A stretch of 35,849 nt of DNA. It comes from Candidatus Tepidiaquacellales bacterium OLB5 (GTDB lineage: Bacteria; Bacteroidota; Ignavibacteria; Tepidaquicellales; OLB5). Made by a program: the position numbers and the translations under genes. A model generated the notes under the pieces. The model was not told the origin of the DNA and searched no databases. It was given only the letters and a program-made list of their open reading frames with translations. The stretch is from NCBI GenBank assembly GCA_001567545.1, contig LLZO01000203.1:1-35849 (forward strand), written 5' to 3'. Below, piece by piece: positions 7,681 to 9,133 of the stretch. The stretch's first letter is position 1. Every line of letters starts with the position of its first letter.

Positions 7681-7758
7681 GGAGCCGTAGTTCAGTTTGG
7701 TTAGAACGCCTGACTGTCACTCAGGAGGTCGCGAGTTCGAGTCTCGTCGGTTCCGCCA
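7681..7758 (+). tRNA. tRNA-Asp (anticodon GTC)
   Basis: A complete cloverleaf can be folded. The acceptor GGAGCCG (7681-7687) pairs with CGGTTCC (7748-7754), with one G-T pair. The anticodon stem is CCTGA (7709-7713)/TCAGG (7721-7725), with a seven-base loop and anticodon GTC at 7716-7718. The T-arm is GCGAG TTCGAGT CTCGT. Discriminator G and an encoded CCA end the gene at 7758. The 3' end, TCGGTTCCGCCAATAAA (7747-7763), is repeated exactly at 8095-8111 beyond the GIY-YIG gene, so this locus has been an insertion target. Confidence 0.97.
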
Positions 7759-7760
7759 AT

Positions 7761-7784
7761 AAACCCCGTTTTTCGGGGTTTTTT
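7761..7784 (+). terminator. Rho-independent terminator after tRNA-Asp
   Basis: AAACCCCG (7761-7768), loop TTTTT, CGGGGTTT (7774-7781), then more T. It ends only eight bases before the GIY-YIG start codon, so that gene is either expressed by read-through or is nearly silent. Confidence 0.85.
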
Positions 7785-7791
7785 GATTTTT

Positions 7792-8058
7792 ATGTCATAT
7801 TTTACATACATATTAAAAAGCAAAATTAAGGATAAATTTTATATAGGGGCTACTGATAATACTGAACGGAGAGTCATTCTTCATAATGAAGGAAAATCTA
7901 TTTCAACGAAGGCTTATATACCATGGGAATTAGTTTATTATGAAAAGTATAAAACTAAAACTGAAGCATTAAAACGGGAAAGACTACTTAAAAAAATGAA
8001 AAGTAAAAAATATATAGAGTGGTTAATCTCAAATCACGCAGGAGGTCGTCCCGATTAA
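7792..8058 (+). CDS. Small GIY-YIG nuclease domain protein
   Basis: An 88-residue single-domain GIY-YIG protein. The signature is seen as YTYIL followed by FYIGATDN, with Arg in TERRVILHN and Glu in the TEALKRERLLKKMKS helix, the expected catalytic residues. ATG at 7792 is preferred to the TTG at 7783, which lies in the terminator T-tract. Proteins of this size (UPF0213/YhbQ-like) are common in Bacteroidota. Here the last residues (AGGRPD) and the stop codon are encoded by the duplicated tRNA fragment and the first inserted palindrome, so the C-terminus was acquired through the insertion. It probably drives or drove its own spread into tRNA genes, as homing GIY-YIG enzymes do, but that is inference. 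Confidence 0.88.
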   Translation: MSYFTYILKSKIKDKFYIGATDNTERRVILHNEGKSISTKAYIPWELVYYEKYKTKTEALKRERLLKKMKSKKYIEWLISNHAGGRPD

Positions 8059-8111
8059 ATCGGGAAGTCTCAGCTTGTCCCGCCGAGGGCGGGATCGGTT
8101 CCGCCAATAAA
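8039..8111 (+). repeat. Disrupted second copy of the tRNA-Asp 3' end with two palindromes
   Basis: Ten bases of the variable region and 17 bases of the acceptor/3' end of tRNA-Asp are repeated here, separated by two 17-base palindromes that share TCCCG...CGGGA. There is no 5' half, so this cannot make a tRNA. The palindromes are of the same style as those inside the gene at 33601-34872. Confidence 0.85.
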
Positions 8112-8113
8112 AT

Positions 8114-8146
8114 AAGGCACTTAGATGGAAATCTGAGTGCCTTTTG
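8114..8146 (+). terminator. Terminator hairpin, probably the original tRNA-Asp terminator
   Basis: AAGGCACTTAGAT and ATCTGAGTGCCTT form a long stem around GGAA, followed by TT. It can also serve the convergent DUF1801 gene ending at 8204, although that gene ends some 58 bases away. Confidence 0.7.
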
Positions 8147-8842: not shown

Positions 8843-9133
8843 ATGCAATTTCTGATCATCAAAAAGCCCCGTGAAAACTTTATAAATACAATGACTGATA
8901 CAGAATCTGAAATCATGAGTTTTCATTTTGAATATCTTAAACAGAAATTAAAAGAAGGGAAGCTGGTTATGGCAGGACCGGTTACTACGGGGGATTTTGG
9001 GGTATCAATAATTGAAACAGAAACTGAAGAAGAAGCACTTGATATTATGAACAATGATCCCGCAGTTTTAGCAGGTATTATGAAACCTACAATATATCCT
9101 TACCGGGTAAGTCTTTTAAGAGGCAGAGATTAA
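8843..9133 (+). CDS. YciI-family protein
   Basis: A 96-residue dimeric alpha/beta-type protein of the YciI/YCII family. The signs are a first strand with FLIIKKPRENF, a helix with HFEYLKQKLKEGKLVMAGPV, then GDFGVSIIETETEEEALDIMNNDPAVLAGIMKPTIYPYRV. The family often carries a His-Asp pair thought to be catalytic; here His29 and Asp67 are candidates. The function is unknown. It is convergent with the arylamine acetyltransferase gene. Confidence 0.8.
   Translation: MQFLIIKKPRENFINTMTDTESEIMSFHFEYLKQKLKEGKLVMAGPVTTGDFGVSIIETETEEEALDIMNNDPAVLAGIMKPTIYPYRVSLLRGRD

Follow-up and report, generated by a model that had tools for sequence, protein, structure and literature searches.

A 348-bp unit carrying one small GIY-YIG nuclease gene at the tRNA-Asp gene of Candidatus Tepidiaquacellales bacterium OLB5 is probably, at a likelihood we put at about two in three, a homing-like selfish element targeting tRNA genes. 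This reading is drawn from the arrangement of sequence at this locus and at its relatives in several phyla. Each nuclease clade holds to one tRNA type and usually to one break site (X) within it, and the position of X decides which end of the tRNA gene is found twice.

A nuclease gene between an intact and a broken tRNA-Asp

The window is the whole stretch of DNA that was analysed, 35,849 nucleotides of contig LLZO01000203.1, and the parts of the unit are given in Table 1. Beyond the nuclease gene, the 10-mer CAGGAGGTCG of the tRNA (7722–7731) is found again at 8039–8048, in a match that extends to 15 nt with 14/15 identical (7717–7731 and 8034–8048), and the 17-mer TCGGTTCCGCCAATAAA (7747–7763) is found again at 8095–8111. 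The distance between the two 17-mers sets the unit length of 348 bp. A preliminary description had seen a tRNA-Asp with a GIY-YIG insertion bounded by a split repeat of its own 3′ end, with segments of 10 and 17 bases repeated past the nuclease, and the repeats, the open reading frame (ORF) and its PF01541 match all agree with it. Its second copy split by two 17-base palindromes is also there, but the AGTCTC piece between them (8066–8071) had been missed. The C-terminal end of the nuclease ORF runs through tRNA-copy and palindrome sequence and, as described, the stop codon TAA (8056–8058) falls inside palindrome 1 (8049–8065).

Table 1. Parts of the tRNA-Asp locus in the window
Feature	Position	Strand	Remarks
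Intact tRNA-Asp(GTC)	7681..7758	+	ARAGORN; Rfam 68.9 bits
Terminator-like hairpin after intact tRNA-Asp	7761..7781	+	
GIY-YIG nuclease ORF, 88 aa	7792..8058	+	ATG 7792; stop TAA 8056–8058
Partial tRNA copy, piece 1	8034..8048	+	Anticodon-loop 3′ side to variable region
Palindrome 1, TCCCGATTAAATCGGGA	8049..8065	+	Replaces tRNA bases CGAGTTCG at break site X
Partial tRNA copy, piece 2	8066..8071	+	AGTCTC, T-arm 3′ strand
Second insertion	8072..8094	+	AGCTTG plus palindrome 2, TCCCGCCGAGGGCGGGA (8078–8094)
Partial tRNA copy, piece 3	8095..8111	+	Acceptor 3′ strand plus CCAATAAA
Second terminator-like hairpin	8114..8143	+	Probably displaced terminator of tRNA-Asp

The position of palindrome 1 is common to five related loci (L024, L025, L054–L056), while the palindrome 2 insertion belongs to the window lineage only and is the later of the two, as L024 and L025 are without it. 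In L024, the copy 3′ of the nuclease gene has a further palindrome, CCCCGATAAAATCGGGG, nested within the first, as if palindromes had inserted into palindromes. Our terminator search returned two hairpins where 0.3 were expected. The unit encodes no integrase, the GIY-YIG gene being its sole sizeable ORF, and a search for group I intron RNA around the nuclease gene gave none, with the tRNA as the only Rfam match above threshold.

The nuclease is a catalytic domain alone

Residues 3–74 of the ORF form the GIY-YIG catalytic domain (PF01541, E = 9e-15), and the catalytic positions Y6, Y17, G19, R27 and E63 are invariant among 24 relatives. Against two relatives, the Asp-type ORF has a dN of 0.12 and a dS of at least 1.3 or saturated, and is under purifying selection. 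The best sequence matches among solved structures are UPF0213 proteins (1zg2, E = 2e-14) and SLX1 (E = 1e-6), the latter a structure-specific nuclease; to our knowledge, UPF0213/YhbQ-YazA and SLX1 are host genes for which no insertion into tRNA genes is known. We found no separate DNA-binding domain in the 88-aa ORF. Known homing endonucleases have such a domain, which gives them long-site specificity, and a nuclease of a single catalytic domain is a point against the homing-like reading.

The arrangement recurs at other tRNA genes

The 3.27-Mb OLB5 genome holds eight GIY-YIG relatives, five of them at tRNA genes or fragments. The expected recurrence of the arrangement at other tRNA genes is seen repeatedly, here and in related genomes. 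For example, in the tRNA-Pro unit a 17-nt palindrome takes the place of the anticodon arm, likewise 17 nt, in the second copy. At tRNA-Ser, one contig terminates within the unit, and the start of another holds part of a broken tRNA-Ser together with an additional nuclease gene. The tRNA-Ile(TAT) locus has the mirror order (5′ half with a palindrome as its anticodon arm, nuclease, repeated leader, intact tRNA) and additionally one more broken 3′ copy. Broken copies that have no nuclease adjoin tRNA-Val, tRNA-Ile(GAT), tRNA-Glu and apparently tRNA-Leu(GAG). Perfect TCCCG-N7-CGGGA palindromes number 20 in the genome, of which five lie within nuclease-bearing units; ten others were inspected, and several are inside or adjoining tRNA copies.

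In the 14 genomes of the window's family with matches, a tRNA or tRNA fragment lies within 400 nt of 48 out of 67 GIY-YIG matches. By a generous estimate, proximity to a tRNA would arise by chance for 1.3% of matches, and finding an intact tRNA at 38 or more matches has a probability of about 2e-53. Across the whole survey an intact tRNA is present within 1 kb of 103 of 142 GIY-YIG matches, on the same strand in 103/103. Named hosts are Ignavibacteria, Neomarinimicrobiota, several Patescibacteria and many Bacteroidota (Flavobacterium, Algibacter, Terrimonas, Leeuwenhoekiella, Christiangramia and Tenacibaculum included); their counts and frequencies are no census, because the named genomes were picked by similarity to the Asp-type nuclease. 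A palindrome-led search of 296 Bacteroidota genomes, free of this nuclease bias, found palindrome-bearing tRNA copies in 26 of them, and none with the reversed pattern as control. We read 42 of these places, part of which overlap: an intact tRNA lies within 900 nt in 32, and a nuclease within 600 nt in 21. The earlier suggestion of a nuclease-only selfish unit of about 350 bases that spares its tRNA is supported.

The break site decides which end is duplicated

Anatomy was tested in 89 nuclease/tRNA pairs from the window's family and the named genomes, a tRNA copy being sought only beyond the nuclease gene, on the side away from the intact tRNA, at a chained score of at least 17. A second partial copy is present in 70 of the 89 pairs, against one of 89 shuffled regions, and 19 pairs are without a clear one. 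The break can be resolved in 63 copies; in 49 of these it holds a palindrome, defined as an inverted repeat stronger than those in 95% of sequences shuffled from the bases of the break. Towards the nuclease, the tRNA remnant next to the palindrome has a median length of 14 nt.

X recurs by tRNA type. Written as the tRNA positions on either side of the break, it is 51/60 for Asp, 56/62 for Phe, 13/17 for Leu(GAG), 32/44 or 45/51 for Asn and, in Ignavibacteria, 21/33 for Met(CAT); for Arg it is 22/23, a clean insertion of CCTGCCTGCCGGCAGGCAGG with nothing lost. Where X is in the 3′ part of the tRNA, the nuclease follows the tRNA (tRNA, nuclease, 3′ copy; 23 against 3), and where it is in the 5′ part, the nuclease precedes it (5′ copy, nuclease, tRNA; 21 against 2), the mirror layout being as common as the 3′ layout. 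The break site decides the layout (Fisher p = 1.1e-8). Since the position of the nuclease depends on the side of X, all extra DNA sits at X when compared with an unoccupied gene; what the unit duplicates is the tRNA gene's shorter half, together with its terminator or leader.

Nuclease clades follow tRNA type

In a tree of 152 GIY-YIG domains (79 columns), in which many deep forks lack resolution, tRNA type changes 47 times, against 103.9 times with shuffled labels, and none of 200 shuffles was as low. The types Arg, Leu(CAA), Leu(GAG), Asp, Phe, Pro and Met form clades, that of Arg covering four Arg isoacceptors. Vertical inheritance accounts for part of this clustering.

These data bear on a neutral history, in which a tRNA end was duplicated in tandem, a GIY-YIG gene came to lie in the gap and palindromes accumulated, with no active element involved. 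Nuclease-less tandem copies do exist, and redundant copies may gather insertions. However, the copies extend about 14 nt beyond the palindrome on the nuclease side, the layout tracks X, the nuclease tree tracks tRNA type and the nuclease ORF is under purifying selection, which leaves such a history improbable.

GIY-YIG genes that have no tRNA beside them (n = 18; members include L005, L006, L035, L046, L176–L178, L181 and L184) form a separate, well-supported clade. Palindromes stand on both flanks in 7/18 of them (single-side control 18%), a moderate enrichment; members are often flanked by REP-like palindromes such as ATTCCCGCTTTCGCGGGAAT.

Unoccupied, decayed and nuclease-less sites

Empty tRNA-Asp sites in which CCAATAAA runs directly into the 8114-type hairpin had been suggested as a check, and one exists in G004, a genome of the same genus (L136/L187). 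In G006 and G009 (L135, L140) there is likewise no unit, and a single terminator stands between tRNA-Asp and the gene that the window has at 8843. A decayed unit in G012 retains 11 nuclease codons ahead of the broken copy. G004 has both a solo palindrome-bearing copy, adjoining the window's 262-aa neighbour gene, and a solo unbroken tRNA-Asp 3′ half with the 8114 hairpin (L148/L186; G004:C260, 3394–3444), and its tRNA-Asp site has a complex history. The proposal that the 8114 hairpin is the original terminator fits its place after the intact tRNA-Asp in L136 and fits less well with its place beside the solo half, so that an original host terminator is likely and not proven. In two further places, tRNA-Asp (L250, G013) or the broken copy (L249, G004:C420) appears inverted relative to its neighbours when compared with the window.

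The solo half L148/L186 looks as though some larger integrated element had left a copy of its attachment site there, and islands of this kind probably exist at tRNA-Asp in relatives. Could the window unit itself be the remnant of an integrase-type island at a tRNA 3′ end, with its direct repeat of that end as an attB/attR pair? The unit measures 348 bp and has no integrase, its repeat contains a palindrome, the design is common to many tRNA types, and the mirror 5′ layouts with duplicated leaders contradict such an origin, which we regard as very improbable.

Occupancy of tRNA-Asp is patchy and does not fit simple descent. The closest relatives by rpoB (G013 and G014 at 97%, G003 and G006 at 96%) have tRNA-Asp without the unit, whereas G008 (rpoB 95%) and G001 (another genus, rpoB 89%) carry it with nucleases of 78% and 79% amino acid identity. 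G007, of the same genus (rpoB 94%), carries a unit whose nuclease is merely 52% identical. The nearly complete genome G006 has a nuclease at three of 43 tRNA genes and a broken copy at five, and its occupied tRNAs largely differ from those of the window's genome.

Repeats without the gene in unrelated positions had been named in the preliminary description as evidence against it, and this applies in part: nuclease-less copies do exist, but most are beside an intact tRNA. After tRNA-Gln(CTG) in G006 (L245), at least five nearly identical 111-bp units stand in tandem with no nuclease gene, each the 3′ part of tRNA-Gln in which TCCCGACACTCTGTGTCGGGA stands in for the anticodon arm; this array is a recent amplification. 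The nuclease-less broken copy L137 is visibly a deletion derivative. It is evident from such copies that a tRNA-copy/palindrome unit does not need a nuclease in cis to multiply, a point against the homing-like reading. At tRNA-Leu(CAA) in L031, L028 and L044, the GIY-YIG genes adjoin long arrays of degenerate tRNA-Leu copies, apparently layered old insertions. Three copies that bear a palindrome were taken by ARAGORN for tRNAs: L071 ('Glu'), L104 ('Gly') and L198 ('Ala').

A homing-like model

Two arrangements were observed, in both of which the tRNA remains whole with the unit inserted at X. The 3′ layout has a replacement tRNA 3′ half and terminator, the GIY-YIG gene, about 14 bp of tRNA, the palindrome and the displaced native 3′ half; the mirror layout has the palindrome, about 14 bp of tRNA, the GIY-YIG gene and a replacement leader with 5′ half. 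We postulate that the nuclease would cut unoccupied tRNA alleles at X, where the motifs would be common features of tRNA genes (T-loop, anticodon arm, D-loop), and that the host would repair the cut by recombination with a unit-bearing locus, by which the unit is copied into the cut gene. Of the two sides, the one closer to X would be duplicated because it requires the shortest replacement. In the model, the 3′ half of the window's tRNA-Asp from about 7732 is the end supplied by the unit. The palindrome could block cutting of the second site that the unit carries, or could be recognised as a hairpin, as constant palindromes, nesting and nuclease-less arrays suggest. Tandem arrays and nuclease-less units may have arisen by recombination between the repeated halves and by internal deletions. 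Counting against this homing-like reading, the intact tRNA keeps X, so that one would expect the host to be cut by its own unit. The 19 pairs that have no clear second copy, and the share of vertical inheritance in the tRNA clustering, weigh on the same side.

Two further roles were considered. The idea of a tRNA half resistant to cleavage and brought in with the unit is not supported, as the unit-free G006 has a tRNA-Asp identical to that of the window; tRNA halves are too conserved to trace the origin of the replacement end. A general role of the partial copy in tRNA-like processing of the nuclease mRNA was rejected, because the T-arm of the Asp-type copy is destroyed.

A different account gives the palindromes the leading part, as mobile REP-like hairpins on which an SLX1/UPF0213-like nuclease acts. 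Genes for tRNAs would be struck because their single strands form hairpins, and the broken copy would be a working end, not a blocked site. Several observations point this way. First, the break carries a palindrome and not arbitrary DNA, and in Ile(TAT) and Pro 17-nt anticodon arms are swapped for 17-nt palindromes. Second, there are the nested palindrome in L024, the lineage-specific palindrome 2 and the palindrome retained by nuclease-less units. Lastly, the tRNA-less clade has members with palindromes on both flanks (7/18), and the nuclease profile matches SLX1 (E = 1e-6). Yet nuclease clades are specific to tRNA type and usually to X, as expected of sequence-led homing, palindrome sequences vary between clades, and we know of no hairpin movement by an enzyme of the GIY-YIG family; we consider this account possible but doubtful. 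It would make the units a new class of mobile element, in which the palindrome in the broken copy is a hairpin-recognised working end, a one-domain GIY-YIG enzyme moves both its own units and nuclease-less ones of about 110–220 bp in tRNA genes (such as those at tRNA-Gln in G006), and the sister clade does likewise with intergenic palindromes, a proposal that we put forward tentatively and think unlikely.

Relation to known systems

Taking up the homing-like reading again, the window nuclease shares with free-standing GIY-YIG homing endonucleases a catalytic motif with conserved Tyr, Arg and Glu, a gene located at its putative target tRNA-Asp, and the existence of nuclease-free tRNA-Asp alleles. 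REP/REPIN systems are short palindromes tied to the RAYT transposase (Y1), with enzyme-less copies; our units are alike in pairing short palindromes with one small enzyme and in having enzyme-less copies, but they have GIY-YIG in place of a Y1 transposase and their palindromes lie inside tRNA copies.

The closest analogue with experimental study behind it is SegB, a free-standing GIY-YIG homing endonuclease from T-even phages (PMC13096335; Brok-Volchanskaya 2008, cited in PMC2988022). SegB cuts inside tRNA genes with a motif, RAWTSGAAC, that is complementary to the T-loop, and in T6 a tRNA/segB segment is amplified in tandem through its action (PMC13096335). The likeness lies in the GIY-YIG fold, the place beside tRNA genes and the T-loop motif, where our nuclease would likewise cut; palindrome 1 deletes exactly the T-loop whose complement is the SegB motif. 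In contrast to SegB, which is phage-borne with a wide, partly nonspecific cleavage pattern, the window unit is chromosomal, and window-type nucleases have about 88 aa, consist of the catalytic domain only, are clade-bound to one tRNA type and come with a palindrome-broken second tRNA copy. Our search for a phage or plasmid carrier found none in viral contigs, one distant match in plasmids and one in phages, the only relative of the window nuclease among 50,697 phage records.

In design, the closest analogue is the fungal mobile ORF (mORF), which duplicates and replaces gene ends and so makes gene hybrids (Allomyces atp6; Glomus atp6, atp9, cox2 and nad3; PMC3630166). There, as in the window unit, an endonuclease ORF has a new end for the gene on one side and the native end, pushed away, on the other. 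The mORFs occupy mitochondrial protein genes, always at the C-terminal end, and their displaced end has no palindrome, whereas window-type units occupy bacterial tRNA genes at either end.

Implications

This widespread family of tRNA-gene units looks undescribed in the open-access literature, where we found SegB and mORF analogues only; an earlier description may exist elsewhere. If our reading is true, a large share of the small genes annotated in Bacteroidota and their relatives as 'GIY-YIG nuclease family protein' would be tRNA-gene parasites, and the units, at about 350 bp with one 88-aa gene, would rank with the smallest known mobile units that are autonomous. They would also follow a rule for entering an essential gene without breaking it, namely to replace the nearer end. 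Broken tRNA copies could mislead automatic tRNA annotation, and false genes may exist in these phyla. The system makes it testable how a minimal nuclease finds its tRNA site and why palindromes mark that site.
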